From positions 422,190 through 486,189 of the forward strand of contig WFMF01000099.1 in the NCBI GenBank assembly GCA_011033025.1: a DNA stretch of 64,000 nucleotides. The letters are read 5' to 3'. How positions within the stretch are numbered: the first letter of the stretch is position 1; every line of letters begins with the position of its first letter. This document shows, piece by piece, positions 3,306 to 64,000 of this stretch. Made by a program: the position numbers and the translations under genes. Below the pieces are notes generated by a model. That model was not told the origin of the DNA. It was given only the letters and a program-made list of their open reading frames with translations, and made no database searches. The DNA comes from Beroe forskalii (lineage: Eukaryota > Ctenophora > Nuda > Beroida > Beroidae).

Positions 3306-3354
3306 TGAATTGGCGTACACTCACCTGAACTTCAGGAGAGTGTACGCCAATTCA
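3306..3354. repeat. Perfect 17-bp inverted repeat (hairpin)
   Basis: TGAATTGGCGTACACTC at 3306-3322 is followed, after a 15-base loop, by its exact reverse complement at 3338-3354. The loop contains a shorter palindromic core (TGAA/TTCA). It lies in unique-looking sequence about 0.9 kb before the ORF1-like coding region. It could be a mobile-element end or a structured transcript region; nothing in the sequence decides. Confidence 0.85.
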
Positions 3355-5287: not shown

Positions 5288-6807
<1,520 letters not shown>

Positions 6808-25423: not shown

Positions 25424-26209
25424 CTACATGAACATATCATCATGATCAAACATCCTGGTCCTCCCAGGCGGCATCAACGCATCGTTATCTGGTTCCCTGC
25501 CCCCAGGCCCAATGGGGTCATACCGTGCACCTGGCACTGGGCCCCATCCTGGCCCCATGCCAGGAGGTTGACTCCGCATAGGGTCCATAAACATGCCTCC
25601 ACCTCCTCCCCTGCCAAAGGGGTCCAGATCACCCCTGCCAACTGCAAATGGATCAGTGTTTCTGGGCAGACCAGGGTGCCGGTGTCTGTCATCCCTGAGG
25701 GAGTCTGGAGGAGGCATTACTGGATCAGAGTCATTTCTCCTCTCAAAGGAAGAGGCTGTGGAGGGACTGGGCTTGGGATCTAAGGGGGAAATAATGTCCT
25801 TATAGATCTTCTGATCAAAGTTAGGAACGTCTTTCGACTTGTACGTATTTGTGTCATCGTCAAAGTTTTCAATATGCTCTTCAATATTGAAATCAAGAGT
25901 TTTTAGCTCATTATTAGAGATTGCATTTATGACAATGACATTATTCATCAACAAAGCCTTAATTTCTGTAGTTAAATCCTTTTCTTTGTTCATGTACTTC
26001 AACGAAACTATGTCATCTTTGTCATCCCAATTCCTCGGAAGACTGACTTCCTCAGAACCAAATATCACAAAGCCTTTCTTTACAATTGCATCGTGAAACA
26101 AGGTGTAAATTGCGTGGAATTTACTCTTCGCTATCCTCTTGTACTCCATTATCAGAAAGTCTGATTCATCAGAGATCAAAATCAAACATAGGAAGAAACA
26201 TAGAACCTG
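25424..26209 (-). CDS. PSMF1: Proteasome inhibitor PI31 (PSMF1) homologue, main coding exon
   Basis: The N-terminal part (SKFHAIYTLFHDAIVKKGFV, then LPRNWDDKDDIVSLKY) matches the PI31 FP domain that dimerises and binds FBXO7-type partners. The C-terminal part is the Pro/Gly-rich proteasome-binding tail with the hallmark DPFAVGRGDLDPFG, GMFMDPMRSQPPG and GARYDPIGPGG segments, ending DHDDMFM. PI31 binds and modulates the 20S proteasome core and helps transport proteasomes. The first ATG in the exon is 26149 (241 residues, versus about 270 in vertebrates). The frame stays open upstream to an acceptor at 26210 (TTTTTTCAG), so a short 5' exon encoding the beginning of the FP domain probably exists but was not found. 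A corrupted second copy lies at about 63700-64000. Confidence 0.9.
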   Translation of the reverse strand, partial: QVLCFFLCLILISDESDFLIMEYKRIAKSKFHAIYTLFHDAIVKKGFVIFGSEEVSLPRNWDDKDDIVSLKYMNKEKDLTTEIKALLMNNVIVINAISNNELKTLDFNIEEHIENFDDDTNTYKSKDVPNFDQKIYKDIISPLDPKPSPSTASSFERRNDSDPVMPPPDSLRDDRHRHPGLPRNTDPFAVGRGDLDPFGRGGGGGMFMDPMRSQPPGMGPGWGPVPGARYDPIGPGGREPDNDALMPPGRTRMFDHDDMFM

Positions 26210-26971
26210 AAAAAAGGAAAGAGTGAGTAAGCAATATATTCAATATTCAATCATCTTTTTCAAGGAATACCAAATGGGACTTTAGGTTCCCATGACCATT
26301 ACAAAATTGTTCATCCTAGAATGTACCTAGTCAAGTTCATTTGCCAGAAAATTGATCAATATATCTCCAAGAAAGATAATTTCATATGGTTCAAATCAGT
26401 ACATATTTTTAAAGAGAAGTTTTTACTGCAGGTCATTATTTTTGGATAAATAATACAAATAATGATTTTGTAAAGATGGAAATCGATCAATATTGTACAC
26501 CACTTTGTTCAAATCATTTTAAGTTAATTATATCTATATACATTTATATACAAAAACAATAGAAATTAATTCCTTTTGTCATTGAAACTCTAAACAACTA
26601 AAACATGATTATCTGACTTTTTAAATAACATATACCAGATATGGATACTAAACATCATTACCTCAGGGAAAATAATATCATGCACATTAAAATAAAAACA
26701 TAAACTGTACATTAAAATAATACTGAGCATCATAAAAACTGTGGGAGAACCTGAGAATAATGAAAGCTAAATTTGGTGGTATTGTAATAGTATACCTTAA
26801 GAGTTATCAAATGAATCATTCATTGTGAATACAATACAACTAGCTCAGGGCACTGCTCTAAGCAGGGCCATGTGTACCTACCTAACTTGTGAATAACAAT
26901 AGCCATTCTGCCTTTGTTGTATTCTATTACGATTTTTAAGTAAGCTGTATAGTATTGTTTTATGAATATTC
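26210..26971. other. Interval between PI31 and the TIR gene
   Basis: AT-rich sequence. A short 5' exon of PI31 and the 3' UTR of the TIR gene should lie here. I could not place either precisely; no open frame of interest is present. Confidence 0.4.
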
Positions 26972-28189
26972 TCATCCATATGCATGCAGTACATCATAGG
27001 GATTTGGTGCAACCCTGAGATCTTCTGCAAAGCAACAATACTCTAATGCATAACCAGAATAAGTTACCCATTTGCCATCATTAGCACCTTTGGAATGTTC
27101 TCCATAACATCGCAATCTATTGGAGCTACAATGTTCTATCCTTTTCACAATTCCTTCATGGTACCTCATTCCACCAGTCCTAACACCTTCTTCACCCCTA
27201 TAAGATCCTTGTGGGAAGATTACACGAGTTCCAACAGCAATGTCTTGAGGATTAGGTACTTTATTCAGAGCTACCATTGTCAAAGGTGGGAACCTGCCAC
27301 TTTCATCTTCATCATCCCACCTTATCTCAAAAGTCATATCCTCCTTAATGAATCTTATGATTGTTGCAGGAAAATAAGAATGTTTAATCCAATGTGCTAT
27401 TACATAGTCACCAACTTTTGGAACTTTATCTCTGATACTTTCATCAAGGTTTGCTGTTTGCATGGCAATCACTTCTGAATATGTGGGAGGTGCTGATGCT
27501 TCACCACTATCCTGAATAGAAAGCTGGTTTAGTCTGGTTGATGCTACTTCAGTATCCACCATGCCAAGCATACTCTTAATTGCACCAACAAGAAATCCCA
27601 TTTTTTCCTTAAATTCTACATCTTGTGTAATGGGTACATTCATTAAAAATGGCACTCTTCCATCTTGTTTTATATATGAATCAATTGTTGGGCAGATCTC
27701 TCCTGGCCTGATTAGCACTGGCAGGACAGGCTTCTTCAGTGATTTAAAAGCAAACTGATATTCCATTTTACACTGGTCATCCATGCAGTATTCAGGAGAT
27801 AACAGAGCAACAAATAATTTGACTTTTTGCAAGTGAAGAGCTCTATCATCATAAAAATCACCAGTGGATTGTGGTCCCAGTGATACACTGGCAAACCATG
27901 GCTTGAAATGTCTTGACAGTTCAGCTGTGATTTGCATGGGGTCATGATATTGAGAGCTACAAGATGTTCCACCAGAGCAATTCTCTGGGCAATAACTTAC
28001 ATAGACATCATAATCCTGTGAGGGGTCCTGGAATATAACAGTAGGGATACTTGATTCCTGTTCAGAATGGGTTGAAGAGTCAGATGATGATCTAAAACCA
28101 TGGTGTTCTATAAGATGATCAATATGCTCAACACCAGAAGAAAACTTAAATCTGCAGCTGTTTACACCACAAGAAAACCTCCCCATCAT
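26972..28189 (-). CDS. TIR-domain protein with N-terminal zinc-finger-like motif and C-terminal Tudor-like pair
   Basis: An uninterrupted frame of 405 residues. Residues 5-31 (FSCGVNSCRFKFSSGVEHID plus HLIEHH) look like a C2H2-type zinc knuckle. Residues 59-210 are a TIR domain: DYDVYVSYCPEN, KVKLFVALLSPEYCMDDQC, Glu143 at the position of the conserved WCxxE/NADase glutamate, then KKPVLPVLI. PPTY (234-237) is a possible WW-binding motif. Residues 255-310 (VGDYVIAHWIKHSYFPATII ... EIRWDDEDESGRFPP) and 316-393 resemble SGF29/DUF4537-type Tudor-like modules. TIR domains assemble in innate signalling or cleave NAD+; Tudor-like folds read modified peptides. The order is unlike TLR, MyD88 or SARM1. 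Start: first ATG of ATGATG. A frame-broken copy lies at 62036-63250. Confidence 0.8.
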   Translation of the reverse strand: MMGRFSCGVNSCRFKFSSGVEHIDHLIEHHGFRSSSDSSTHSEQESSIPTVIFQDPSQDYDVYVSYCPENCSGGTSCSSQYHDPMQITAELSRHFKPWFASVSLGPQSTGDFYDDRALHLQKVKLFVALLSPEYCMDDQCKMEYQFAFKSLKKPVLPVLIRPGEICPTIDSYIKQDGRVPFLMNVPITQDVEFKEKMGFLVGAIKSMLGMVDTEVASTRLNQLSIQDSGEASAPPTYSEVIAMQTANLDESIRDKVPKVGDYVIAHWIKHSYFPATIIRFIKEDMTFEIRWDDEDESGRFPPLTMVALNKVPNPQDIAVGTRVIFPQGSYRGEEGVRTGGMRYHEGIVKRIEHCSSNRLRCYGEHSKGANDGKWVTYSGYALEYCCFAEDLRVAPNPYDVLHAYG

Positions 28190-29040
28190 TCAAGCTTCAG
28201 ATTAAAGAATCATGACTCATCCTTTCTTTAAATTATCCTGTGCAATAAGGTATTAATTATTGGTGTGGATTTCCTGGGATACTGAGATCATCTACAAAAT
28301 TCATTGCTGAAACCAGGGCTCATTCGATGTCAAAAATTTTTGAAAAGCAGTCAATTTTCAAGCAAGTTTTTACTTTCATATTGAAAAATATACAAATAAC
28401 CAAGACAACGCGATTGTTTTTCATGGGGTTATCCCCCTCAATGCTATAAACAATCAAGTTCAACACCAGAGCTGTACATAAATTGAAATGGCTTCAATTG
28501 GCCAATGAATGATGTCATTATGAAGATAAAACATTGAATAACTTTTTATGCAGGAAATTCATCAAATTCAATTTTTAGGAAAAATATTTTTAATACAAAC
28601 ATCTTAACAAACATAGAAATTTCACATTTCAAGCTGAATCAAATAGAGCAGCACAGACTGACTTAATTTCAGTTTCAGATTTGCGTTTTTATTGAAAAGC
28701 TCTAATTTAGCTTGTCCATGTCAGAATGTCATGTCAGGCGTTGCTAGATGATGATCTCAGCTTGCGCTCATCGCCCCGGCCTCGTCTGACCCATGATAAT
28801 TCGACCTCAGGTATGTTTAATAGTCTAGATATAACGGTTGCGGATATGTGCGCTTCTAAAGTGGCTCACTTGGCCACTTGCTAATCTGTAAACACTTGCT
28901 AAACACATATACCATACCCATTGCCTGTTGGCATCGCATACACATTACACACACCTATGCGGGCTTTTGCCTTTTCCTACTAGAGTAGTTAGTTTTACAT
29001 AAAACAGTAATCTGTAATATAATGGGTCTGACGGTTTCCT
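28190..29040. other. Intergenic sequence upstream of the TIR gene
   Basis: AT-rich sequence, well conserved in the right arm (59340-62035 minus the 1.9 kb insertion), with no open frame. The promoter of the TIR gene should be here. A TATA-type element cannot be singled out. Confidence 0.4.
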
Positions 29041-29049
29041 CATGTCAAA

Positions 29050-29692
29050 AGACCGATTTTGTGCGCGCTTATTTTACCGAAGAAAAACGCGCGCGCTTTT
29101 CTTACTGAAGAAAACAGAAAAACGCGCGCGCTTTTCTAACCGGAATAAAACGCACGCGCTTTTCTTACCGGAGAAAAACGCGCGCGCTTATCTTACCGGA
29201 GAAAACGCGCGCGATTTTCTAACCGGAGAAAAACGCGCGCGCTTTTCTTACTGGAGAAAAACGTGCGCTTTTCTTATTGGAGAAAAACGCACACGTACGC
29301 GCTCTTCTTACTGGAGAAGAACGCACGCGCTTTTCTTACTGGAGAAAAACGCGCGCGCTTTTCTTACTGGAGAAAAACGCGCGCGCTTTTCTTACTGGAG
29401 AAAAACGCGCGCACTTCCCTTACTGGAGAAAAACGCGCGCACTTCCCTTACTGGAGAAAAACGCGCGCTCCCTTCTTACTGAAGAAAAACGCGCGTGATT
29501 TACTTACCGAGAAAAACGCGCCCGCTTTTCTTACCTTAATGAAATTTTCATTTTTCGTGACCCCCCTACTTACCGGAGAAAAACGTGCGCGCTTTTCTTA
29601 CCGGAGGAAAACATGCGCGATTTTCTTACCGGAGGAAAACATGCGCGCTTTTCTTACCGGAGAAAAACCCGCGTAAGGGCCATCCATAGAAA
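29050..29692. repeat. CpG-rich 28-bp minisatellite (left arm)
   Basis: About 22 copies of a unit close to CTTACTGGAGAAAAACGCGC followed by GCGCTTTT. Because 28 is not a multiple of three, all three frames run open through the array and give the same LTGEKRARFSYWRKTRALFL peptide in rotation; these are not genes. It lies between the 3' end of TCERG1 and the TIR gene. The right arm has the same array, shorter, at 58790. Confidence 0.92.
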
Positions 29693-30537
29693 ATCGGCAA
29701 TCCCGCAACCGAAAAGAATTCTAAGAAATCGACAAATGCGACGTCCGGGGGGGAGGGGCGGTTCTGGACTGCGGACGTCCCTCATGATGACCCCTTAAAA
29801 TTAAATAATACTTGTGTTTATGTCCATATACCACGAACATTAAAGACGCACAAACTGTCCAGATGCCGGGGTATACGTATTTGAATTTCAAAGTTAGCAG
29901 ATGTGGAGTCGAAGGAATTCTTAAATTTCATCATGATTATTCATCGACATCCCCTTTGCATTTTTGGCCACAGCAATTCAATAATTCATTTGTTGAGCAA
30001 ATGCAACTTCATGAAAGCTGCAAAAATGGCTGATTGAGTAAGAGCGCACTTTCAAGGTACCTGGTACATCCGTGCATTTTCTCTTTCAGCAATTTCAGTG
30101 GCGCAAAATACCATGCCTGAAGCTAAAACTAAAAGCATGTATTTCGCGCCACTGAAATACCAAACTATGTGGAAAGTACATTGTGGACTGGTTCTAGAAT
30201 TACAACCAATATGGCGTGTGATATACAAAAAGGCACCTGAGTTGATCTTGTCTCCAAAAATCACGGTTTTTTGAAATCTTGATCATCTCGAATCTTTCAA
30301 TCTGACATCAATATCATGAACAATTCAACATTAAAAGCAGGCCCGATTCAAACAGTTATCTTTGAGTTTGAACTTCAAGATAATCTCAAAAAGTGTAAAT
30401 TTAAAATTGTAGCTGTGCTCGGATATATAATTGGAGATAAGACGGAAAAGCAAATAAATTTGACCGGTTACAGATATAATTGATATTAATAATGCCTGTA
30501 CGCAGCGCAGAATAAAACCATGTCACACCTCACCCCC
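29693..30537. other. Interval downstream of TCERG1 (left copy)
   Basis: Holds the TCERG1 3' UTR and intergenic sequence. Near 30070-30160 GGTATTTCAGTGGCGCGAAA-type sequence occurs in both orientations (AATTTCAGTGGCGCAAAATAC and its inverse), forming a hairpin also present in the right arm at 58510-58565. The stretch 29700-29860 has no counterpart in the right arm. Confidence 0.5.
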
Positions 30538-33500
30538 TCATCTCTTGGAGGGTCGTGTAGCGGTGGGTGGTGGTGGGGGACCGTACTTCTCAATCTCAGA
30601 CAGGTAATCGTCCAGGATCTGGTCTCGTTCCTCCGGCAGATCATCCAAAACTAGACCTCGCTTATCATTCTGAGAGGAGGGGCTTAGTCTACGATCTGTG
30701 ATCAGAAACTGGAAATTTGTCCGAAAATTAATCCAATATTTTTCCTTCAAAGATAAAAATAACATTACTAACCGTGAGGAATTGTCGGATTTCTCTCATG
30801 TGAGAATCTCCGTTGGGCCCTCTCAGCACTTCTTTCGACTTGTGGGACACGCACTTTATCTCCTTCAGGAGCTGCTTGAATTCAGACTTAGCCAGAGTGA
30901 TCTTATCTTTGATGTGACCCTGGAACTCTGTTTCCCTTTCCTGGATTAGAAGTTGGTTATGCTCGACCGACTGTTTGCAATTGCCAACTCGTTTTTGACT
31001 GGTCAAAAGTGGACTAATTCTCGGAACAGATTAACATTGAATTCTGCAGTCAAATACCTTGTCATCATCAGAGAATTTGGCAAATCGAGGATCATGTTTG
31101 ATCTTTCGTCTGATTTCCTTCCAGGTTGAGGTCAAAGTCAACTGAAGGAAATAATTTATATCATTAGTTACATACCTGAGTGTTTTTTGTCAGAATTTAT
31201 TATGAATCTATCAGACGGCAAAAGCAACGCGGCTATGGATGAGAGAAATGGGGCTCTGGTTAGAGAAATGCATGAATGCTCTACTCACATGTTCGCACTC
31301 ATCCAGCAGCTTCCTGAAACTCCGCTTCCGCTTGTTAGACAGATTCTTGATATGCTCGTTGAAGTGTTTCTCCTTCTGCTCAGCATCTATCAGCACACAC
31401 AACTCCCACCTCGTATCATCCCGGAGTTGTTTCCGTGTTTTGCGCCAGGAGGCGTCAGCGTCACGCACCATGTCGTGGAGTAGGGCGAGGAAGTGCTGCT
31501 GTGCTTCCTCCCGCGCGTGCGCGCCTCGCTCCCTCTCCCACTCACGGTTCTGATCGACCTAGAAAAAGGGATCAGGGGTCAGGAGTGAGAATAGAGTAGG
31601 TTGAAGTAAGGATTGGGGGCAGTAAAAATTTATGATTAAGAAAGTGTCGTGCCATGAGCGTTGTGGAAGTAGACAGGCAAGGCGATCGACCGATCGTGGG
31701 GGTAACGCAATGGGGGTCGGACAACTTCAGAAACCGTTCCCTTACACTTTGCAGATATCCCTCACCTGTTTCCTAGCTACCTCTCCCTCCCTCTTCTTCA
31801 TCGCTGCTGCCTCTCTTTCCTTCCTCGCTATTGCTTTCTTCTCTGACTCAGAGAGTTCAGGTTCCCTCTCCTCCAAAGTCTTGGTGTACTCGTAGAAATA
31901 ACCCTCGCGAGTAGACGACGACCCTACTGCTATGTACCTATGATGAGTTGTGTGATTAGGGGAAGAATGGTGATGTGGATGCTGGCGAATTACCAAAAGG
32001 GGAGAATTTCCATCAAGATGTTATCGAATAGATTTGAATTATCAAACACCATCGTCTAGTTAAGGTTAGAAATAGAAATGACCTTTCATCGTGCGCAAAG
32101 TACTTCTTTTTCTTGCTCCAATTGCTTTCTGGGTTAATCCTCACATCGCCACTTCGCAGCATTTCCATGAAATCTTCCTTTACCTGGCAAGGTATGGAAG
32201 GTTCAATATATTGCTTTCGCAGTCGAGGGGGAGGTGGTTCCGAGCATCAGGGTTGGTTGATGTTCGAAGGGCTGAAAATTGCTGTCACACCGTACAGTGT
32301 ACGTGAAATTCGAGTACAAAATTCGCGCGCGCGGTTGCGCGCTATACGAAATGCTGAAGGGTGTTTTGCTTTTCACTCCTGAACGACCGCGCAGCGTACG
32401 CAAACAACTAAAAAGTTTGTGACCGCGCCACAAACTTCTCCCAAACTTACAGCTTTCGCGGCTTTGGTTTCCTTCGATTCTTTCCTGTCCCTACTTCTGT
32501 CCCCTGATTCCCTCCTGTCCCTCGACTCCCTCCTTTCCCCAGCTGATTCTCTTCTGTCCCTCTCAGAATTCTTCCTCGATCGTTCCTCCTTGCTTCTGTC
32601 CCGCTCACCACTCCTTTCTTTTGGAGCAGGGCTGCGTTCGCGCGGTGTTTTCTCTCGCGGAGTTCGCTCTCTCGCAGCTGGAACACTCCTTTCTCGCTCG
32701 GGTTCCTTAGCCCTCTCCTGGGGACTCTCTTTAGTCTCATCCGAGTCCTTCTTCTTCTCGGATTGCTCGGATTTCCACTCGTGGAACAGGTGCTCTCGTT
32801 CTCGCATCTTCTCGATTGCTTTGAACTTCGGATCTTTTCCGTATTTCTGAGCAAAGTCACTGAACGTAGCCCTGAAAAATGTAGCAAATGTTACAATTCC
32901 CAAAGGTAGATAATTTCAGTTCCGAGGCATAAGCATTTTACAACAGTTGCGAATAGAGAAAAGTACTAATTGACATTAGCTAAACAGAAAGATAACCTTG
33001 AAGAGAGGTTGGCTTTCTCTATCAGCTTCTTGAACGCATCCCTGTTATCTTTGATTTTGTTTCTCTTCTCTATCCTCTCATCCTCAGCTCTGCTCTTGAT
33101 AAAAGCCTCGTAAGCTTGCTTCCTCTCTCTGCCTGACAGCAGTAAGTACCGCGGATCAAACACTATCTTGTGCAGCTCCTTGTCCCAAGTGCTAAACGCT
33201 GAGACCTCCCTGTCCAGCAACATCTCACGGAATGCTGTCTGTCTTTCTTCTAGACTCATCTTCTCTTTCTGATACTTGGAGGCTTCCACCTTGTCTCCCT
33301 TATCAGGCTTAGGCTGGCTGTAGGGGGTGGTTCGGGTGATGGAAGGGAAGAAACAGGGCATCGCGGATGAAATTGAAGTTGTATCTCGTGTTATCGAGTA
33401 ACTTACTAAAATCAGCAGACGATGATAATCACATGATTTTCGCAACTCGCCAACTCCTGCTTGAGCATGTCAAGAAATAAGAAAAAGAGCAAAGCTCCCC

Positions 33501-36500
33501 ATTCGTTGAAGTAATAACTAACTCGGCCTCTTCTGTTTTGGTTGGTTTCGCGGCTGCAGCATTTGATGCCATGTTGATAATGATACCATCAGATTTCTTA
33601 TTACCAGACGCAGCTTCTTTATCAAGCCTGGGAGGAATGTGTTAAGGGGAGAACAGTTAACAAGAGAAAGATTAGGAAAGCAGTAGCAGAATTAGGAATG
33701 TGTATTTCTGAAATTAATAGAAAGTTGAGAATTCATTTCAAACTGCGAAATGTTTGCCATTCGGCATGGCATGGATACAAAATATTAGAAAAGGGGGGGT
33801 TCTGTTTGGTAGATGTTGGAAAATAGGTAAGGGTTAAGATTCGTGTCTATCGTTGGCCTGGGATAAATAATCATTCTTAGATAGATTACTTTGGGTTACG
33901 GTTATTGTTAGAAAAATTATTTAGTTCTCGATTAGAATTTCGCTTTGAACGAACAGTACCAGCAACATTGGCTTCTTTCCTGAGATGTTATTCCTGAAAT
34001 CTTCCAGTGATGTTATAAATTCCCAGTTCAAACTTTGATTTTAGTATCTGAATAGTTAGATACTATCTATAAACCTCTGTATGGCTGAAACAAGGCCCTC
34101 CAATATCATCTTAAAAACAAAAGGATTTTGTTATTGTTGCTACCCATAAAAATGAACAAAAAACCTAATTACTTTACCTTGAATGTTAGGTCAAATAAAA
34201 GGAGGCTAGCCGGTGTTACGCCAAACTGAATGGTACACAAAGTAAGAAGATGAAAATAAATAGGTATAAAATCTATTTTCATTGGAAAAAGGCACTAACG
34301 ATTGAATCAAATTTACATGAGGCATGAAAATAGAATATAAGTATTTTTAAGGTCTGAACAATCCGAGAAATCAAATTCAAATCGTTGGTGCCTTGCCCCT
34401 TAAGCATTGGCTTGAGTCGTCAGTATGAGAACAAAGATAGACGTTTCATTTTGATGTCGATTTATAATACGGAGAAACAATTGGGGAAATTTCTTTGTTC
34501 TTGTTTAATGATATAAATTTTAAATTGGCATTCAATAGAATCATCAGAACGTGCAGCATTGCGCGTTTCCTTTTCGAAATGAGACCTATTGGGTAATCTA
34601 AGAAGTAGGGATTTCTCAATATTTATGGATGGGCTGTAAATCTACAAATGGTCTTTTATAATGGGTATGATTTGTTGATTGAAACCTTTCAAGAAAATTT
34701 ATCGTAAGAATCTCTCGGAAATCATACCCATCATTTCGAGCATAGGAAAGATTTTTCCAAAAGGCATAACTGGGAGTAGGGCAATCCTGTAGGGTAATTA
34801 CGGAAGGGCGTGGGCGGCTAGGAGAGAGTACATACTTGCGTGGATGTTGACAATCCTTATACTTTCAGATCTTTGTTGTTCTTGTGTTTGAGCAAAGCAT
34901 CAGAGCATTGCAGATAAGTCCTCTCCAACCAGACCCATGTTTGGTGATTAGCAATGATTGAAAACACGAATAGAAAATTCGAAGAAAACGAATATGGGAT
35001 GCAGTAAGTTGTAAAGTCACTTGAAAAATAGGCATTTTCATTGCTAAAAGTGCGTTGAACTTCAAAAGAACAAAACTTCTTCTATCTGATTCCCGCCCTG
35101 GCCAGGGCGGTAACCCCCCGCGGTAATAGAAAAGACTGGCCAGGGTATATATTAGAGATTTGAGTGTCACAGGGTGATATAATATATACATAATAAGATA
35201 GATCATGATAATTAGGAGCAAAGTTATAAAGCCGAGATCTCAAGAACGGGAAATGGTAGAGCCATGATCGAGGTCAGGTTTTGTTGACCTAAGATGGGAA
35301 AATGTTATAGGCTATAAGAGAAGTTCTGGTGACGTCATTTTCACGTCACTATGACGTCATCAACTTAGCGAAATTTTATTGCGAATATAGGTCATCTTCG
35401 TGCGCATTTTTCTCCAAGAAGGAAAGGAGATAGCTCAAAAATTTTGAAAAATCGTTAGTTGGAAATTTAAAGAACTTTCAGAAAATCATATGGATCATTG
35501 GGCTATCTCGATTTTTCATCGAGATATACGCGATTTTCTAAGGTACGGTGAAAAATCAATTTCAAAATTTTAGGAGAAAAACTTAAACGAGTGATATGTC
35601 AAGAACTGCAGCTTATCTTGAGATGAGACCGGTCAAAGTATGTTGTACTAAGGCGGAATTGTGTGATAGGCTATATGGAAAGTTGGTTTGAGCTTATTTG
35701 GGTGCTGTGATGACGTCATCAAAATCGCGTAAAAGCACTAAAATAGCGTATTTTGTGATAGAACGCTATTTTGCGCTACTTTTACATCTCCAACTCATAG
35801 AGTGTTCATCGGATTATGTGGGTCCGAATAACGGGGGTCCGAATAACGGGGGTCCGAGTAACGGGGGTCCGAATAACGGGGGTCCGAGTAACAGGGGTCC
35901 GAATAACGGGGGTCCGAGTAACGGGGGTCCGAATAACGGGGGTCCGAATAACGGGGGTCCGAATAACGGGGAAATATACGATGGACTAGTGAAGCACGTG
36001 AGTTCACGCGGACGTTTTGTAGAAATTAGGGGATTTGAAGAAATTGATATTTACGCAGGATTTTCGACTGATTATGTTGAAATGAGTTTAAATACGACTA
36101 ATGCATGAAATTAGATCTGGTTGCCATATTTTAGCACGTGAGTACACACGGACGTTTTGTAGAAATTAGGGATTTGAAGAAACTGATATTTACACGGGAT
36201 TTTCGACTTGGTTAGGTTGACATGAGTTCAAATACGACTAATGCACGTGAAATTAGATCTGGTTGCTATATTTAAGCACGTGAGTACACACGGACGTTTT
36301 GTAGAAATTAAGACATATATCAATACTAGTAATTTCAAGTTAGAATAACTTAGTTTTGGACTTCCTCAGGGTGATTTATGTGGGTTAGACTTGCGTGTGG
36401 GCTAGTAACGAGGGTTCGGACTACGTGTAACGTGAGGGCAAGTTACGTGGGTCTAAACTGCCTTTGGGCAAGTAACATGGGTTCAAACTACATACATCTG

Positions 36501-52600: not shown

Positions 52601-55600
52601 GCGCGCGTTTTAATTCAATTTTGCGCGGTGTACATTATATCCACTCCTTTTGTCTATGACATTATCGCTTTTTGATGACACGACCATTTCAGATAATGCA
52701 CCCCCTGCTGAAGAACCCCCAGCAAAGAAAAAACCTAAGTATGTGAATTCTAATCTTCATGAACTATAATCGCTTTGAGCCACCGAAAATAAAAGAAGAT
52801 ATTGAATGAAAAGTGTGTCTTTTTTCTCCGAATTTACTCATCAAAACACGAAAAAGCTTCTATAGTTCATTGATTCTGTTCTGATAAAACTTCTCTTTTG
52901 CTGAAAATATGATTCTGACTTTTTTATTAACCATGTCCCTCACAGCCAAACAGGTAGGGTAACATATTTCAGGTCGCCAAAACGTCCCTTGAAGCGAGCT
53001 GGACTAACATTAAAACCCAAAACTTGTTATTCATTATCCAAAACTAACCCTGTCAGGAAGCAATATGAACATGCTCCAAGTCTTCTTGATTTCCTCATTC
53101 CATCGACGAGGTTTTTACTAACCTACTAACAATAACTAACACACTAACAATAAATAACTTACAAACAATAACTAAAAAGTTGAAAACGTCAAAGCAAGAT
53201 TATGTTTATTTCCTCAATTCAGCTGTAATTTGTTTTTACTTACCTAGAACCCAGGGAAGATATGAGTTACAGCTTTGAGAAGAATTGAAGGCCCATGATG
53301 GTCTTGTCATAATGAGCGATGGGAACGTCGCCCCCCCTCCCCCCCCCCCTTTCAATTTATTCTATACAAACCAAGAATGATATATTCAATTTGAAATCCA
53401 CAAATAGATAAATCTGAATGACAGAGTCGCTTCAAATTTGTAGTTTCGAATAAATTACATACTTTTGGCCGGTTATAGTTTGTTATTGGCTTATTTCACT
53501 TGGCCCTCCGTTCTACAATTTTGTAACCTAAATCTCAGCCTGAATCATCAGAAGGGATACCCTCAAGTCTCCAGGTTAGTATCAGATAGAAGAAGTTTTG
53601 TTCTTTTGTAGTTCAACGCACTTTTAGCAATGATAATGCCTATTTTTCAAGTGTCCCTACAACTTACTGCATCCCATATTCGTTTTCTTCGAAGTTTTTA
53701 TTCGTGTTTTCAATCATTGCTAATCACCAAACATGGGTCTGGTTGGAGAGAACTTATCTACAGTGCTCTGGTGCTTTGCTCAAACTCAAGAACATCAAAG
53801 ATCTGAAAAGTATAAGGATTGTCAACTTTCACGCAAGTATGTACTCTGTCTACTAGCCTTCCACGCCCTTTCATTGCCCTACTCCCAGACATAATGCCTT
53901 TTGGAAAAATCCTTCCTTTGCTCGAAATAATGGGTATGATTTCCGAGGGATTCTAACGATAAATTTTCTTGAAAGGTTTCAATCAACAAATCATACCCAT
54001 TATAAAAGACAATGACCATTTGTAGATTTACAACCTATCCATAAATATTGAGAATTGAGAAATCCCTACTTCTATGATTACCCAATAGGTCTCATTTCGA
54101 AAAGGAAACGCGCATTGCTGCACGTTCTGATGATTCTATTGAATGCCAATTCAAAATTTGTATCATTTAACATGAACAAAGAAATTTCCCCAATTGTTTC
54201 TCCGTATTATAAGTCGACATCAAAATGAAACGTCTAACTTTGTTCTCATGTTGACGACTCAATCCAATGCTTAAGGGGCAAGGCACCAACGATTTGAATT
54301 TGATTTCTCGGATTTTTCAGACCTTAAAAATACTTATATTTTATTTTTATGCCTCATGTAAATTTGATTCAATCGTTAGTGCCTTTTTCCAATGAAAATA
54401 GATTTTATACCTATTTATTTTCATCTTCTTACTTTGTGTACCATTCAGTTTGGCGTAACACCGGCTAGCCTCCTTTTATTTGACCTAACATTCAAGGTAA
54501 AGTAATAAGGTTTTTTGTTCATTTTTATGGGTAGCAACAATAACAAAATCCTTTTGTTTTTAAGATGATATTGGAGAGCCTTGTTTCAGCCATACAGAGG
54601 TTTATGGATAGTGTCTAACTATTCAGATACTAAAATCTCAGTTTGAGCTGGGAATTTATAACATCTCTGGAAGATTTCAGGAATAACATCTCAGGAAAGA
54701 AGCCAATGTTACTGGTAGTGTTCGTTCAAAGCGAAATTCTAATCGAGAACTAAATAATTTGTCTAACAATAACAGTAACCCCAAGTTACTATCGAAGAAT
54801 GATTATTTATCGCAGGCCAGCGATAGACACGAATCTTAACCCTAACGTATTTCACAACATCTACCAAACAGACACCCCCCCCCCCCCCTTTTTTTTAATA
54901 TTTTCTATCCATGCTATGCCGAATGGCAAACATTTCGCAGTTTGAAATGAATTCTCATCTTTCTATTAATTTCAGAAATACACATTCCTAATTCTGCTAC
55001 TGCTTTCCTAATCTTTCTCTTGTTAACTGTTCTCCCCTTAACACATTCCTCCCAGGCTTGATAAAGAAGCTGCGTCTGGTAATAAGAAATCTGATGGTAT
55101 CATCATCAACATGGCATCTAATGCAGCTGCCGCGAAACCAACCAAAACAGAAGAGGCCGAGTTAGTTATTATTTCAACGAATGGGGAGCTTTGCTCTTTT
55201 TCTTATTTCTTGACATGCTCAAGCAGGAGTTGGCGAGTTGCGAAAATCATGTCTGCTGATTTTAGTGAGTTACTCGATAACACGAGATACAAGTTCAATT
55301 TCATCCGCGATGCCCTGTTTCTTCCCTTCCATCACCCGAACCACCCCCTACAGCCAGCCTAAGCCTGATAAGGGAGACAAGGTGGAAGCCTCCAAGTATC
55401 AGAAAGAGAAGATGAGTCTAGAAGAAAGACAGACAGCATTCCGTGAGATGTTGCTGGACAGGGAGGTCTCAGCGTTTAGCACTTGGGACAAGGAACTGCA
55501 CAAGATAGTGTTTGATCCGCGGTACTTACTGCTGTCAGGCAGAGAGAGGAAGCAAGCTTACGAGGCTTTTATCAAGAGCAGAGCTGAGGATGAGAGAATA

Positions 55601-58129
55601 GAGAAGAGAAACAAAATCAAGGATAACAGGGATGCGTTCAAAAAGCTGATAGAGAAAGCCAACCTCTCTTCAAGGTTACCTTTCTGTTTAGCTACTGTCA
55701 ATTGCTACTTTTTACTGTTCGCAACTGTTGTAAAATGCCTAAACCTCGGAACTGAAATTGTAACATTTGCTACATTTTTCAGGGCTACGTTCAGTGACTT
55801 TGCTCAGAAATACGGAAAAGATCCGAAGTTCAAAGCGATCGAGAAGATGCGAGAACGAGAGCACTTGTTCCACGAGTGGAAATCCGAGCAATCCGAGAAG
55901 AAGAAAGACTCGGATGAGACTAAAGAGAGTCCCCAGGAGAGGGCTAAGGAGCCAGAACGAGAGAGGAGTGTTCCAGCTGCGAGAGAGCGAACTCCGCGAG
56001 AGAAAACACCGCGCGAACGCACCCCTCCTCCAAAAGAAAGGAGTGGTGAGCGGGACAGAAGCAAGGAGGAACGATCGAGGAAGAATTCTGAGAGGGACAG
56101 AAGAGAATCAGCTGGGGAAAGGAGGGAGTCGAGGGACAGGAGGGAATCAGGGGACAGAAGTAGGGACAGGAAAGAGTCGAAAGAAACCAAAGCCGCGAAA
56201 GCTGTAAGTTTGGGAGAAGTTTGTGGCGCGGTCACAAACTTTTTAGTTGTTTGCGTACTGCGCGCGGTCATTCAAGAGTGAAAAGCAAAACACTTTTCAG
56301 CATTTCGTATCGCGCGCAACCGCGCGCGCGAATTTTATTCTTCAAAATTTCATGATTGAGTCGAATTTTACGTACTTTGTACAGTGTGGCAGCAATTTTC
56401 GGCCCTTCGAACATCAGCCAACCATGATGCTTGGAACCACCTCCCCCTCGACTGCAAAAGCAATATATTAAACCTTTCATACCTTGGCAGGTCAAAGAAG
56501 ATTTCATGGAAATGCTGCGAAGTGGCGATGTAAGGATTAACCCAGAAAGCAACTGGAGCAAGAAGAAGAAGTACTTTGCGCACGATGAGAGGTCATTTCT
56601 ATTTCTAACCCTAACACCATCAACTAGACGATGGTGTTTGATAATTTAAATCAATTCGATAACATCTTGATGACAATTCTCCCCTTTTGATAATTCGCCA
56701 GCATCCACATCACCATTCTTCCCCTAATCAAACATCTCATATCCCAGGTACATAGCAGTAGGATCGTCGTCTACTCGTGAGGGGTATTTCTACGAGTACA
56801 CCAAGACTTTGGAGGAGAGGGAACCTGAACTCTCTGAGTCAGAGAAGAAAGCAATAGCGAGGAAGGAAAGAGAGGCAGCAGCGATGAAGAAGAGGGAGGG
56901 AGAGGTAGCTAGGAAACAGGTGAGGGATATTTCCTAAGTGTAAAGGAACGGTTTCTGAAGTTGTCTGACCCCCATAGCGTTACCCCCCGATCGCTCGATC
57001 GCCTTGCCTGTCTAGTGCAACAACACTCATGGCACGACACTTAATCATAAATTTGTACCTCCTATATTCTCACTCCTGAACCCCTGATCCCTTTCTCTAG
57101 GTTGACCAGAACCGTGAGTGGGAGAGGGAGCGAGGCGCGCACGCGCGGGAGGAAGCGCAGCAGCACTTCCTCGCCCTCCTCCACGACATGGTCCGTGACG
57201 CTGACGCCTCCTGGCGCAAAACACGCAAACAGCTCCGGGATGATACGAGGTGGGAGTTGTGTGTGCTGATTGATGCGGAACAGAAGGAGAAACACTTCAA
57301 CGAGCATATCAAGAATCTGTCTAACAAGCGGAAGCGGAGTTTCAGGAAACTGCTGGATGAGTGCGAACATGTGGGTAGAGTATTCCTGCATTTTTCTAAC
57401 CAGAGCCCCCTTTCTCTCATCCATAGCCGCGTTGCGTTGCTTTTGCCGTCTGATAGATTCATAATAAATTCTGACAAAAAACACTCAGGTATGTAACTAA
57501 TGATATAAATCATTTCCTTCAGTTGACTTTGACCTCAACCTGGAAGGAAATCAGACGAAAGATCAAACATGATCCTCGATTCGCTAAATTCTCTGATGAT
57601 GACAAGGTATTTGACAGCAGAATTCAATGTTAATCTGTTACGAGAATTAATCCACTTTTAACCAGTCAAAAACGAGTTGGCAATTGAAAACAGTCGGTCG
57701 AGCATAACCAACTTCTAATCCAGGAAAGGGAAACCGAGTTCCAGGGTCACATCAAAGATAAGATCACTCTGGCTAAGTCTGAATTCAAGCAGCTCCTGAA
57801 GGAGATAAAGTGCGTGTCCCACAAGTCGAAAGAAGTGCTGAGGGGACCCAACGGAGATTCTCACATGAGAGAAATCCGACAATTCCTCACGGTTCGTAAT
57901 GTTATTTTTTATCTTTGGAGGAAAAATATTGGATTAATTTTCGGACAAATTCCCAGTTTTTGATCACACAGATCGTAGACTGAGCCCCTCCTCTCAGAAT
58001 GATAAGCGAGGTCTGGTTCTGGATGATCTGCCGGAGGAACGAGACCAGATCCTGGACGATTACCTGTCTGAGATTGAGAAGTACGGTCCCCCACCACCAC
58101 CCACCGCTACACGACCCTCCAAGAGATGA
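46683..58129 (+). CDS. TCERG1: Transcription elongation regulator 1 (TCERG1/CA150), right copy, complete
   Basis: Sixteen plus-strand exons: 46683-47654, 47806-47989, 48183-48407, 48587-48820, 51156-51302, 51627-52007, 52693-52738, 55056-55160, 55354-55674, 55783-56203, 56491-56591, 56748-56919, 57101-57370, 57523-57606, 57724-57891, 57998-58129. Every exon matches its left-copy partner in length except exon 1 (972 versus 981 bp) and exon 6 (381 versus 384 bp), and all phases are kept, giving 1320 residues. Differences are conservative, such as loss of PLQ after GMDR, one Glu fewer in the poly-Glu run before WW3, Ser to Asn near FNRGG, and Val to Ala at the exon 5/6 junction. The same three WW and six FF domains are present. 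No stop or frameshift was found, so the copy looks functional. It is transcribed divergently from the left copy, with RWDD1 and PUS1 between. Confidence 0.96.
49020..51138 (+). repeat. 34-bp minisatellite in TCERG1 intron 4 (right copy, about 60 units)
   Basis: The same unit as at 39490-40076 in reverse orientation (CCATAAGTTACACTGTGTAC followed by CAAGCCCCCAGATG). Length variants and short deletions are more frequent here. It fills nearly the whole intron and ends about 18 bases before the exon 5 acceptor at 51156. Expansion relative to the left copy is about 3.6 fold. Confidence 0.95.
53330..53355. repeat. Long C homopolymer region in TCERG1 intron 7
   Basis: C-rich runs (CCCCCCCTCCCCCCCCCCTT) correspond to a shorter G run in the left arm at about 36890. 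A similar C/T run occurs at 54875-54896. Such tracts are error-prone in sequencing and are noted only as markers. Confidence 0.8.
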
Positions 58130-58789
58130 GGGGGTGAGGTGTGACATGGTTTTATTCTGCGCTGCGTACAGGCATTATTAATATCAATTATATCGGTAAC
58201 CGGTCAAATTTATTTGCTTTTCCGTCTTATCTCTAATTATATATCCGAGCACAGCTACAATTTTAAATTACCACTTTTTGAGATTATCTTGAAGTTCAAA
58301 CTCAAAGATAACTGTTTGAATCGGGCCTGCTTTTAATGTTGAATTGTTCATGATATTGATGTCAGATTGAAAGATTCGAGATGATCAAGATTTCAAAAAA
58401 CCGTGATTTTTGGACACAAGATCAACTCAGGGGCCTTTTTGTATATCACACGCCATATTGGTTTTAATTCTAGAACCAGTCCACAATGTACTTTCCACAT
58501 AGTTTGGTATTTCAGTGGCGCGAAATACATGCTTTTAGCTTCAGGCATGGTATTTTGCGCCACTGTTATTGCTGATAGTGAAAATGCGTGGATGTACCAG
58601 GTACCTTAAAAGTGCGCTCTTACTCAATCAGCCATTTTTGCAGCTTTCATGAAGTTGCATTTGCTCAACAAATGAATTATTGAATTGCTGTGGCCAAAAA
58701 TGCAAAGGGGATGTCGATGAATAATCATGATGAAATTTAAGAATTCCTTCGGCTCCACATCTGCTAACTTTGATATTCAAATACGTATT

Positions 58790-59195
58790 AAGAAAAGGCG
58801 CGCGCGTTTTTCCCCGGTAAGAAAAGCACGGGTTTTTCTCCGGTAAGAAAAGCACGGGTTTTTCTCCGGTAAGAAAAGCGCGCACGTTTTTCTCCGGTAA
58901 GAAAAGCGCGCGTGTTTTTCTCCAATAAGAAAAGCGCGCGCGTTTTTCTCCAGTAAGAAAAGCGCGCGCGTTTTTCTCCAATAAGAATAGCGCGCGCGAG
59001 GGGGCCAGGCAACGTTTTTCTTCGGTATGAAAAGCGCGCACGTTTTTCTTCGGTAAAAGCGCGCGCGTTTTTCTCCAAAAAGAAAAACGCCCGCGCGCGT
59101 TTTTCTCCAATAAGAAAAGCGCGCGCGTTTTTCTCCAATAAGAATAGCGCGCGCGTTTTTCTCCGGTTAGAAAAGCGGGCGCGTTTTTCTCCTGG
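58790..59195. repeat. CpG-rich 28-bp minisatellite (right arm)
   Basis: About 14 copies of the same unit as 29050-29692, in inverse orientation (GTTTTTCTCCGGTAAGAAAA then GCGCGC). There are fewer copies than in the left arm and the inner flank differs. Open frames through it are repeat-coded. Confidence 0.92.
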
Positions 59196-59686
59196 AAGAT
59201 TACTGTTTTATGTAAAACTAACTACTCTAGTAAGAAAAGGCAAAAGCCCGCATAGGTTGTCTGACGTCGTCAGACCCATTATTTAAAAATTAAAAAATTT
59301 GCGAGTCGTGGCGCGCGCGAGGGGGTCAGGCAACGCCTGACAACGCATAGGTGTGTGTATGCGATGCCAACAGGCAATGGGTATGGTATACGTGTTTAGC
59401 AAGTGTTTACGGATTAGCAAGTGAGTCACTTTAAAAGCGCACATATCCACCACTGTTATATTTAGACTATTAAATTCATACCTGAGGTCGAATCATCATA
59501 GGTCAGATGAGGCCGGGGCGATCGCTATGAGCGCAAGCTGAGATCATTTGGCAAGCAACGCCTGACATGACATTCTGACATGGACAAGCTAAATCAGAGC
59601 TTTTCAATAAAAACGCAAATCTGAAACTGAAATTAAGTCAGTCTGTGCTGTTTTATTTGATTCAGCTTGAAATGTGAAATTTTATG
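59196..59686. other. Intergenic sequence between the minisatellite and the right-arm insertion
   Basis: Matches the left arm (28612-29050) in reverse. It includes a second copy of the GCGCGCGAGGGGG / CAGGCAACGCCTGAC motif near 59310. No gene. Confidence 0.5.
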
Positions 59687-59690
59687 TATA

Positions 59691-59742
59691 GATATTCCAC
59701 TGTAAACGAGGGCCGTTAGGCCCGAGTTTACAGTGGAATATC
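59691..59742. repeat. 24-bp inverted repeat hairpin at the insertion end
   Basis: GATATTCCACTGTAAAC plus GAGGGCC is followed after a 4-base loop (GTTA) by its complement, 22 of 24 positions paired. Stable hairpins right at a boundary are seen in several transposon classes and also as termini of rolling-circle elements. Confidence 0.9.
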
Positions 59743-60419
59743 GTACATATCTCCCTGCATAATTAATAGAAAATTATCTGACGGTTTGAACCCTGTAAAT
59801 TATGTGAACCAATTCCAAGTGGTTTTTGAGAAAATCGCATCTAAAGTTTGATTGGCTCTTACACTGCAACGTGACTCATAAATACGCAGTAACATTGGCT
59901 TTCGCATAACACAGGGGTATCAGGTGTCACTCTATATGACCAAGTCACGTTGCCACATGGTTGGTACAAGTATCAACTACTAGCCTTTACACCCGCTCAT
60001 ATTTAATTTATCCGGCGAAATGACGTCATTAACATGGTAACATGCTGCCAAACTGTCGAATCTAGCCGCCTATTATTCACAGCAGGTGTATATATTAGCA
60101 CCAGTTGGTAGAGGAAAGCTCAGTGATACTTTTGCTTGACTTGCAATTTGTTTCAAACTCCTTACTTTCGTAGTACTGTTATATACCGGTTAAATTGGAT
60201 GCAGCCATAAAAACAATTTAGTTTCATCATATAAACATAGATTATTAAACTTATACCTACAGCACTCTATAGTTTTAATAAAGAAAAAATTAAGTAAGAA
60301 AGTATAAAATTACATTGACATAAACATTCGATATTAATCAAAAGCCAAAAGCAGAAATGGATGCTGAAGCTTTCAGGCAAATCAGCTGATTATGAAAAGG
60401 AAACATCTCCTCTCAGCCC

Positions 60420-61128
60420 ATCAGGGATAAGATTGAACGAAATATCGGAAATCGGGCGATTCGCTCACGAGAGGACTTGCCCGAGATCCTCTTACCGACA
60501 TCAGTACACTCTTCAAAAGTGCAAAAGACAGTTTTGTTCTCATTGTACTGATCACATCCCGGTATTCCTCATTAGTTTTCTGTGCTACAAGATTTGCAAT
60601 CCTCTTGTGAAATGCCTGTGCCTGAGGAGCCATGCCTCTAACGCATTGTACACGAGAGTGGTGTGAAGCTGCACTTCTCCACCTGTATGACTCCGCTGCT
60701 CATACTCCCTCTTCTTGATGTTCTCGTGTTGGGTGTATACTGACTTGATGTCCCGATCCTTGTAGGAGTCTGCATTGGGATGGAAGATCCTGACATCAAA
60801 CATCGTCTTCTTCTGGAAAGGTCCCCTATAACCCTCGAGCAGAGAGATGTCGAGACGGGCCTCTCCTCCACATTCCCTGGGATTGACTGAGAAGAGTCGA
60901 TAGGGATCAGCTCTTAGGCTCGGTCTTAACGTCGTGACAGACTTCTAAGAAACGCATTTGTGTCTCGAACTTTGTTGTGTCTGAAGATTAGGTAGCCACC
61001 ATTTTTACAAATAAGAGTGTGATCTACCGAATTCTTCTTCCCACACACACAAACTGCTGGAATGTTAGGAATCTGCCAACCGTACCTTAACCTGAGTGCA
61101 TCCCTGAACTCTTCTTTGTTCAGTACCC
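60420..61128 (-). pseudogene. 3' fragment of a LINE (non-LTR retrotransposon) ORF2, frameshifted
   Basis: On the minus strand, pieces in different frames read in order: LNKEEFRDALRLRYGW, VCVCGKKNSVDHTLICKNGG and FRHNKVRDTNAFL (the C-x-C, H and C residues of a zinc-knuckle-like site), LDISLLEGYRGP, MFDVRIFHPNADSYKDRDIK and SVYTQHENIKKREYEQR, then FTPL, and MAPQAQAFHKRIANLVAQKT ending RGSRAS. This order is the C-terminal domain of LINE polyproteins common in marine invertebrates. There is a stop near 60950 and at least two frameshifts. The endonuclease and reverse-transcriptase parts are absent, as in a 5'-truncated insertion. Confidence 0.8.
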
Positions 61129-61483
61129 ACCCGAGGGAACCGGGTAATAAAGTAATAACGCAGGATCATATCACTTTTTTACACTTCATATCACTTTTTT
61201 ACACTTTCCGAAATATTTCTAACATTTGGTGTGCACTCTAAATATGTATTTTACCACATTAAAATTATTGTATAATTAGATTAATGTATCTAATAAGCAG
61301 TTTGTAAACTTTGGTTTGCGATATAATTATAGTTCTCTTATTACACTGCATGACAGTTAAGTGAGTAGAACTCCATACTAACTGGCTCGATGCCAAGGGC
61401 AGTATTTTCAGATATTTCCCTCATTCAGGAAAAAATATAGGAAATGCGCCCTCCTTGCTATGACTCTCAAGATAATCTAATTA

Positions 61484-61576
61484 CACGTGATATGAAGCAG
61501 AGGCACGTGGTATAATTACAAAGCTCTGATTCATGGTCACCATGACACGTGACCTGTCACGTTCAAGGGTCACGTG
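61484..61576. promoter_or_regulatory. Cluster of four CACGTG (E-box) palindromes
   Basis: CACGTG occurs at 61484-61489, 61504-61509, 61546-61551 and 61571-61576, with two more CACG half-sites between. Four copies of a 6-bp palindrome in 93 bp is far above chance in AT-rich DNA. bHLH-zip factors such as MYC/MAX, USF or MITF/TFEB bind this core. The cluster lies at the inner edge of the right-arm insertion, about 460 bp before the TIR gene copy. Function is inferred only. Confidence 0.4.
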
Positions 61577-62035
61577 TATGGTGTCGCAATCAGCTTCCTA
61601 TGCAGGGAGATATGTTAAGATGTTTGTATTAAAAATATTTTTCCTAAAAATTGAATTTGATGAATTTCCTGCATAAAAAGTTATTCAATGTTTTATCTTC
61701 ATAATGACATCATTCATTGGCCAATTGAAGCCATTTCAATTTATGTACAGCTCTGGTGTTGAACTTGATTGTTTATAGCGTTGACTAAGGTTGGTAACCC
61801 CATTAAAAACACTCGAGTTGCCTTGATTATTTGTATATTTTTCAATATGAAAGTAAAAACTTGCTTGAAAATTGACTGCTTTACAAAAATTTATGACATT
61901 GAATGAGCCCTGGTTTCAGCAATTAATTTTGTAGATGATCTCAGAATCCCAGGAAATCCACACCAATAATTGATACCTTATTGCACAGGATAATTTAAAG
62001 AAAGGATGAGTCATGATTCTTTAATCTAAGCTTGA

Positions 62036-63250
62036 ATGATGGGAGGTTTTCTTGTGGTGTAAACAGCTGCAGATTTAAGTTTTCTTCTGGTGTTGAGCAT
62101 ATTGATCATCTTATAGAACACCATGGTTTTAGATCATCATCTGACTCTTCAACCCATTCCCAGTGCAGTGTAGCTGTGTCTTCCGAACAGGAAGCAAGTA
62201 TCCCTACTGTTATATTCCAGGACCCCTCACAGGATTATGATGTCTATGTAAGTTATTGCCCAGAGAATTGCTCTGGTGGAACATCTTGTAGCTCTCAATA
62301 TGACCCATGCAAATCACAGCTGAACTGTCAAGACATTTCAAGCCATGGTTTTGCCAGTGTATCATCAGACCACAATCCACTGGTGATTTTTATGATGACA
62401 GAGCTTTTTCATTCTTGCAAAAGTCAAATTATTTGTTGCTCTGTTATCTCCTGAATACTGCATGGATGACCAGTGTAAATGGAATATCAGTTTGCTTTTT
62501 TAAAACACTGGAAAAGCCTGTTGCCAGTGCTAATCAGCCAGGAGATCTGCCCCCCAATTGTTCAAAATAAAAAAAAAAATGGGAAAGTCCCCTTTTAATA
62601 AGGCCCCTTTCAAAGATTAAAATTTTAAAGGGAAAAAAGGGTTTTTGGGGGTTGAATTGCTTGGAAAAAATTGGGTACTGAAAATAGCATCCCAAACCCG
62701 ACTAAACCAGCTTTTCTATTCCCGGAAAAAGTGGTAAACACCCTTTTTACATATTCAAAAAATTGCCCCAAACAAACAAAGTAAAATATCAGAATAAAAT
62801 TCCAAAAAAATTGAATTTTGTTTGCCTTTGTTAAAACTTTTTTTCCCCGCAAAATTAAAGATTTTATTGGGGGGATATGACTTTTGAGGGGAAAGGGGGG
62901 ATGATGAGGGGTGGCAGGGTTCCCCCAAAGACAATGGGAGCTCGAAAAAGTACCTAAACCCCAAATTTCTGTTGGAACTCTTTTTCTTTCCCCAAAGGTC
63001 TTATTTTTAGGGGTAAGAAGAATGAGGGCTTTGGTTATTCCTAAAAAATTTAAAAAGGTAAAAACATTTGGGGCCCCTTAGATTTCCGATGTTTATTGGA
63101 AAATTCCCCAAAATGAATGATTCAAATTTTATAACTTTTTGGTTTTGCATTATTTGTTTGCTTTCAAAATTTTCCCGGGGGTTTCCCAAATTTTTATGAT
63201 GCATTTTTATTTGGAAAATTTTTTAATTTCGTTTTTAAAATTTTAAAAAA
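62036..63250 (+). pseudogene. Second copy of the TIR-domain gene, frame-broken and corrupted
   Basis: From the ATGATG at 62036 the sequence follows the left TIR gene closely to about 62560 (CGVNSCRFKFSSGVEHIDHL, YDVYVSYCPENCSGG). It lacks one G right after the start, so the ATG is out of frame. It carries an in-frame addition of about nine codons (QCSVAVSSE) and loses the frame near 62297 by a small deletion. After 62560 only islands remain recognisable, for example CGACTAAACCAGCTTTTCTA near 62699, matching codons around residue 218 of the left gene. Given the noise further right, some or all of the breaks may be base-calling errors; the nine-codon insertion is more likely a real difference. 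Confidence 0.8.
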
Positions 63251-64000
63251 TTTTTGTAATTATTTTCCCCGAGGCAATGGTGTTTGATTAAAAAATGTTT
63301 TGATAATTTGTTTTTAAAAATCCAAAATTTTTGTTTTTAAATTTGGGTTTTAAGTTTTAGCCTTTAAAACATTTGTTTTTTTTTAATGTTAAAAGATAAT
63401 TTTTTTCCCCGGAAATTTTTTTAACCAAAACTGGTTTTGTTTTCAAATGATAAATTATTTTGGATTGTTTGGATTTTTTTGCAAAAAATTAATTTCTTTG
63501 GAATAAAGAAAGTTTTAAATTTAGTTTGAAAAATTTTTAAATTATCTTTCCCCTTAAAAAAATTAAAAAGAAGTCAAAAAAATTTTCCCCGGAAGGTTTA
63601 AAAAATTAGGATGGCAAATTTTTTTTAAAAGATCTTTCCCAAAAAACCCAAATTCTTGGAAAAAGAATAAATTTAAAAAATTTTTGGAATTACCCTTTTT
63701 TTGGTTTCCTTTTTTTTTTTCCAGTTCTATTTTTTTTTCTTTACCCCATGTTTGATTTTTTATCTGATAATCAGACTTTTTTAATTATGGAGTACAAAAA
63801 GGATGGGAAAAAATAAAATTTCCCCCAAAATTTAAACCTTTTTTACTTTAAAGAAACTTTTTTAAAAAGAAAGTCAGTCTCCCAAATTTGGGGTGAAAAA
63901 TGACATAATTTCTTTGGAAAGAACAAAAAAAGTTTACTCAATTAGGCTTTGTTGTTTAATAAATTTTCATAAAATGCCCTCTCTTGGGGCTAAAAAATCT
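62560..64000. other. Low-quality sequence with inflated homopolymers
   Basis: Runs of A, T, G and C of four to eleven bases replace the mixed sequence of the left arm. The underlying order of the TIR gene, the intergenic interval and PI31 can still be followed. The error density rises from a few small indels at 62290 to every few bases after 62600, as at the poor end of a read. Open frames here are meaningless. Confidence 0.85.
63690..64000 (+). pseudogene. Corrupted start of a second PI31 (PSMF1) copy, cut by window end
   Basis: CCAGTTCTAT (63721) corresponds to the acceptor and exon start at 26209. Then TTTGATTTTTTATCTGATAA and TTATGGAGTACAAAA, AAGAAAGTCAGTCTCCC, ATGACATAATTTCTTTGG and AGGCTTTGTTG match the left PI31 exon in order. 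Frame cannot be judged because of sequence noise. It shows that the inverted duplication reaches into the PI31 gene. Confidence 0.8.

Follow-up and report, generated by a model that had tools for sequence, protein, structure and literature searches.

Mirror-image TCERG1 copies on one contig of the ctenophore Beroe forskalii are probably two alleles joined head to head

Retained alleles are a known fault of ctenophore assemblies. According to the Hormiphora californensis genome paper, over half of the scaffolds of Pleurobrachia bachei were judged to be unmerged haplotypes (PMC8527503). The same paper puts heterozygosity in H. californensis at 3.2% combined and 2.4-4.7% per chromosome, with an acknowledged ceiling on the estimate, and describes introns and intergenic DNA with reduced single nucleotide polymorphisms (SNPs) and many insertions and deletions (indels), as well as three heterozygous inversions on chromosome 1 of a single individual (PMC8527503). 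Here, we analyze 64,000 nucleotides of Beroe forskalii DNA (the window; bases 422,190-486,189 of contig WFMF01000099.1, assembly GCA_011033025.1), in which two copies of the transcription regulator gene TCERG1 face away from each other across a 3.65 kb spacer. The assembly searched comprises 216 Mb in 1134 contigs. The two mirror copies are probably alleles of one locus that ended up head to head on a single contig, on either side of the spacer.

A first-pass annotation of this DNA had described an inverted duplication with two divergently transcribed, intact TCERG1 genes, and self-comparison of the window together with inspection of every exon bears out the mirror arrangement. By BLAST, the segment at 27.2-42.74 kb is repeated in inverted orientation at 63.0-46.40 kb. 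The main blocks are 92-94% identical with gaps counted, the two outer blocks 85% and 90%, and a 28-bp tandem array between these two is lower. Along the arm alignment from 42,720 to 30,149, identity is 0.91-0.995 (200-column windows with at least 140 aligned columns). Homology ceases about 280-300 bp ahead of the TCERG1 start codon on both sides, and both genes are transcribed outward from the centre. The homologous stretch measures at least 16.8 kb on the left to 17.6 kb on the right, against an earlier figure of at least 17 kb. The right arm continues, badly read, to base 64,000. Because that base is the end of the contig, the outer limit of the right arm is unseen.

Gene models were built by spliced protein-to-genome alignment with a Bolinopsis microptera protein (P0002). 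The alignment split the repetitive exon 1 in two and set two exon starts differently between the copies; we treated exon 1, open throughout, as a single exon and applied identical exon starts to both copies. Every boundary was checked, and both copies have GT-AG at each internal boundary, no in-frame stop and a terminal TGA. The 16 exons and open frames annotated before are retained, with lengths of 1319 and 1315 residues under the present exon choice in place of 1324 and 1320. A genome search with P0002 gave 28 matches, 28/28 on this contig and 14 per copy. TCERG1 orthologues are defined by three WW domains followed by six FF domains, and the last 995 residues of copy B, the copy scanned with Pfam, contain three WW stretches, two TCERG1-WW and six FF matches (residues 321-1315). 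The best-scoring named relative is the TCERG1 of the ctenophore B. microptera, one unnamed JGI protein scoring slightly higher. Copy B and the B. microptera protein share 840 of 1146 aligned residues; the latter was matched over the entire rough query and WW and FF domains are present in both, whereas its size is 1201 residues against 1315-1319 here. In a literature search we found no paper linking ctenophores and TCERG1.

Part of the evidence on the origin of this structure lies at the contig end. The stretch 63,109-64,000 aligns in order to 26,827-25,896 (expect value, E, 4e-35, 139 bits; the best match of a control stretch reached 41 bits), and the last bases match, in garbled form, the start of an exon of a gene that we take to be PSMF1-like from its PI31 proteasome regulator domain. 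The right copy holds both the TIR-domain gene and the first part of the PSMF1-like gene. Since its tail still aligns in order to the flank of the left arm, it is cut by the contig end with no breakpoint seen. Homology that runs past the gene without an outer boundary, as for an allelic duplication, was thus found up to the last base. Reading quality over this tail is poor, with homopolymers merged. Mean homopolymer run length is 2.0-2.6 in 6/6 bins of 250 bp, compared with 1.395 in the rest of the window (standard deviation 0.097, maximum 1.984), and 77-84% of substitutions in four stretches equal a neighbouring base, compared with 51% in the good part of the arms. The same is true of 59/61 inserted bases. 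Raised run length (250-bp bin mean of at least 1.75) also occurs at 3 of 20 contig ends on 12 contigs, namely both ends of C581 and the start of C592, counts in which an effect of base composition is possible. The TIR-domain open reading frame (ORF) has a counterpart in copy B, from about 62,017, with frameshifts that fall inside the poorly read tail or shortly ahead of it. Pseudogene decay of this gene was considered and set aside as unusable, the frameshifts from about 62.28 kb running into the low-quality end.

No continuation of copy B was found elsewhere in the assembly: a query spanning 23,500-27,100 has a single genome place, in a search that also missed the garbled tail and so speaks for well-read DNA only. 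Such an absence is expected for alleles, because merging or purging would have eliminated the rest of the second haplotype.

The divergence between the copies points in the same direction. The two proteins have 14 amino-acid differences over 1315 aligned codons, plus four gap residues, with nonsynonymous divergence (dN) of 0.0045-0.0049, synonymous divergence (dS) of 0.11-0.15 and dN/dS of 0.03-0.04. Over the arms there are 532 substitutions in 11,410 aligned bases (4.7%). Introns outside the tandem array differ at 262 of 5291 bases (5.0%) and carry 39 indel events, or 7.4 per kb. Copy A and copy B each carry an insertion (1.6-1.9 kb) where the other has an empty site, and a 34-bp array has 17 units in A and about 61 in B; copy-specific insertions and repeat expansions had already been reported for the introns. 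Taken together, the low dN/dS, the indel-rich introns and the lack of a clear conversion tract are what alleles of a very heterozygous animal would show. As a separate observation, exon four-fold sites differ by 13.7% and introns by 5.0% (30541-42443 / 46683-58126), a contrast obtained here with no read mapping involved; in Hormiphora, SNP heterozygosity is likewise reported to be greater in exons than in introns, which is attributed there to read mapping (PMC8527503).

How two alleles could come to lie on one contig can be pictured as follows. The spacer, with its RWD-domain and pseudouridine-synthase ORFs, would lie in opposite orientations in the two haplotypes. An assembler entering the spacer from allele A could then exit onto the reverse strand of allele B, each single junction in that walk being backed by real reads. 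The contig would fold back along allele B and run out of support within the PSMF1-like exon, and what truly follows the spacer would be on a different contig. The second-best route to such a fold-back is a simple misjoin at the repeated-element piece (45,906-46,390).

Other origins have to be weighed against two alleles. The first-pass annotation preferred a palindrome persisting by gene conversion, and mirror arms around a spacer with intact genes are indeed shared with the palindromes of mammalian sex chromosomes. The arms of such palindromes are nearly identical, however, whereas those described here differ at 4.7% of aligned bases and show no clear conversion tract. From the centre outward, divergence is trendless at 2.9-5.3% in the ten innermost bins, each of 1000 aligned bases; it rises to as much as 10.8% in the eleventh bin (58.6-62.0 kb), which holds repeats and the copy-B insertion, and is 2.0% in the last short bin (62.0-62.4 kb). 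The longest identical run, 201 bp and mostly exonic, slightly exceeds the 95% point (195) of 500 shuffles (mean 144) but stays under their maximum of 272, and so lends little support to gene conversion. With neither arm identity near 100% nor long identical tracts, a gene-converting palindrome is very improbable. The annotation's own alternative, a head-to-head join of two haplotypes, is the better fit in view of the contig end, the failure to find a continuation in well-read DNA and the pattern of divergence. A fold-back read or amplification chimera of one molecule could account for a mirror structure located at a contig end, but it would yield identical arms. The substitutions counted above and the copy-specific insertions refute it, as the annotation had already concluded for a simple fold-back artefact, and we give it practically no weight.

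A more serious rival, even if an unlikely one, is a true inverted segmental duplication. It would have placed a mirror copy of TCERG1, of the TIR-domain gene and of the PSMF1-like gene, the last at least in its first part, next to the RWD and pseudouridine-synthase genes, and selection would have kept both TCERG1 copies. Several observations weigh against two alleles, most of them in favour of this duplication. There is no N gap in the arms or the spacer, so the assembler's path is continuous and the sequence runs gapless through both junctions. The right junction carries a transposon fragment, and transposon fragments sit at many rearrangement breakpoints. Four low-copy probes from outside the arms gave a clear answer, and 3/4 have a single place (23,500-27,100; 19,532-20,479; the non-repeat spacer, among 40 places scored of 1235 candidates); haplotype retention is therefore not general on this contig. 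The fourth falls in a second inverted repeat of the contig, about 44 kb away centre to centre, which has outer ends and is low-copy at that probe; it could represent either a genuine, older inverted duplication or an error of scaffolding at a gap. Four-fold sites differ at 75 of 549 positions (13.7%), more than introns do and a large value for alleles, even those of a hyperdiverse animal. The heterozygosity yardstick is that of another ctenophore species, H. californensis, and not B. forskalii's own value. A spacer-inverted allele would yield exactly this contig, and that step is drawn from topology alone; no sequence beyond the spacer was identified. On the other side, a true duplication should show outer breakpoints with different flanks. 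None is seen, the right arm being still homologous where the contig stops within the PSMF1-like exon, so that a breakpoint could lie beyond; nor was a continuation of copy B found in a search that reaches well-read DNA. A duplication ending near the contig end, or one with a missing flank, would be needed. This is a cost, though possible, because contigs often break at repeat edges. Finally, the dN/dS of 0.03-0.04 over a dS of 0.11-0.15 is tight, and such tight values are unusual for a young redundant gene pair. On balance, the sequence observation of the first-pass annotation was right and its palindrome is disfavoured; a fold-back between alleles is the most likely explanation, perhaps by way of a small heterozygous inversion.

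The coordinates of all features are collected in Table 1.

Table 1. Features of the mirrored TCERG1 locus and its flanks, in window coordinates.
Feature	Position	Strand	Description
Left arm (copy A)	25896..42739	-	Inverted homology to right arm; BLAST, arm alignment and tail alignment reaching 25,896
Right arm (copy B)	46395..64000	+	Reaches last base of contig; no outer boundary seen
TCERG1 copy A	30538..42443	-	16 exons, 1319 residues, stop TGA 30538-30540; spliced alignment with P0002 and splice-site check
TCERG1 copy B	46683..58129	+	16 exons, 1315 residues, stop TGA 58127-58129; spliced alignment with P0002 and splice-site check
Spacer	42740..46394	.	3.65 kb; sole other genome places are those of the repeat piece (40 scored of 1235 candidates)
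RWD-domain ORF in spacer	42936..43607	-	Pfam PF05773, E 9.9e-24; DFRP_C below its cut-off
tRNA pseudouridine synthase ORFs in spacer	44231..45557	-	Two overlapping frames; Pfam PF01416, E 5.4e-13 for 44234-45247
Truncated repeated-element piece	45906..46390	+	485 bp, abutting right junction; both ends cut relative to seven other copies
Copy-A-only insertion	35091..36654	.	Empty site at 53,581 in copy B
Copy-B-only insertion	59688..61612	.	Empty site near 28,610 in copy A
34-bp tandem array, copy A intron	39491..40070	.	17.1 units (Tandem Repeats Finder)
Same 34-bp tandem array, copy B	49022..51138	.	7.6 + 53.9 units in two rows (Tandem Repeats Finder)
TIR-domain ORF, copy A	26972..28189	-	405 residues; Pfam TIR_2 28.2 bits, cut-off 28; Tudor match below cut-off
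PSMF1-like exon beside copy A	25424..26239	-	PI31 proteasome regulator domain; Pfam PF11566, E 1.4e-8
Low-quality contig end	62500..64000	+	About 1.5 kb; homopolymer runs and substitutions copying a neighbouring base

The spacer had been called unique. Its size and most of its sequence conform to this, the exception being the repeated-element piece: only 3167-3651 of the 3664-base spacer query has other places in the genome, and the piece is 89-98% identical to the full-length places scored (in both cases 40 scored of 1235 candidates). About 0.77 kb of the element is common to the seven copies read, in both orientations, and many copies of it form +/- pairs separated by a few kb. Recombination between complete terminal repeats of this element was considered as well, and is weakened by the truncation of the junction piece at both ends. 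In a search for short inverted repeats at the spacer edges that might have promoted an inversion, the only matches apart from the arms were of 9-19 bp, with E of 0.5 or worse. Of the two overlapping pseudouridine-synthase frames, that at 45168-45557 was taken from the ORF list, the Pfam match covering 44234-45247 only.

The second inverted repeat pairs 412.8-422.9 kb of the contig with 429.7-423.0 kb (window 295-676 and 836-7538, with contig 412,765-422,865). Its chained blocks longer than 100 bp are 76-95% identical and meet at the only N gap of the window (736-835). The probe inside it has two main genome places, both here, mirrored and 86% identical. Its outer ends are visible in that 382-412 kb and 429.7-449 kb share only matches to a multi-copy element (E 1e-8 or better); the element matched in this comparison sits at 426-428 kb and is copy-specific. 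If this second repeat is real, such structures do occur in this region. Two contig-end and two flank probes on other contigs, and a long left-flank query, gave matches dominated by repeats.

A 3' splice-site-like sequence (TGATTGTAG before GAAGACAGTACC ATG) stands directly upstream of the TCERG1 start codons at 42443 (-) and 46683 (+). It could be a candidate for spliced-leader trans-splicing, which the Hormiphora paper describes as common in that genus (PMC8527503).

These considerations bear on how the locus should be read experimentally. Reads across a single junction, or a junction polymerase chain reaction, would be positive both in a heterozygote for an inverted spacer and in a true duplication, and would not discriminate between them. 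The 2:1 depth of arms to spacer that had been proposed as a sign of duplication appears to be wrong: a true duplication predicts equal depth, because the arms were assembled separately, and half-depth arms would be the sign of alleles. If the copies are alleles, simply counting genes would credit a ctenophore with a second transcription regulator gene that it does not have, and a very small heterozygous inversion could fold a contig onto the other haplotype while every junction appears supported. Should the doubtful case of a real mirror duplication hold, TCERG1, normally a single-copy gene, would have remained under strong purifying selection in both copies (dN/dS about 0.04) while synonymous sites diverged by 11-15%, and the copies would enclose a cassette of two genes. 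This would be an unusual instance in which tight selection has preserved two copies of a conserved regulator.

Both elements of the favoured explanation, a fold-back between alleles by way of an inverted spacer, have counterparts in other ctenophores. The inversions on chromosome 1 of H. californensis likewise leave a segment oppositely oriented between the haplotypes of one individual (PMC8527503). They span about 2 Mb each and were detected by Hi-C, whereas the segment proposed here would be 3.65 kb and is deduced from contig topology only. The assembly of P. bachei and long-read drafts of Beroe ovata likewise retain both alleles of one locus in what should be a haploid representation (PMC8527503, PMC11184263). 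In those assemblies the alleles lie on separate scaffolds or contigs, whereas in B. forskalii they would lie mirrored on one gapless contig.

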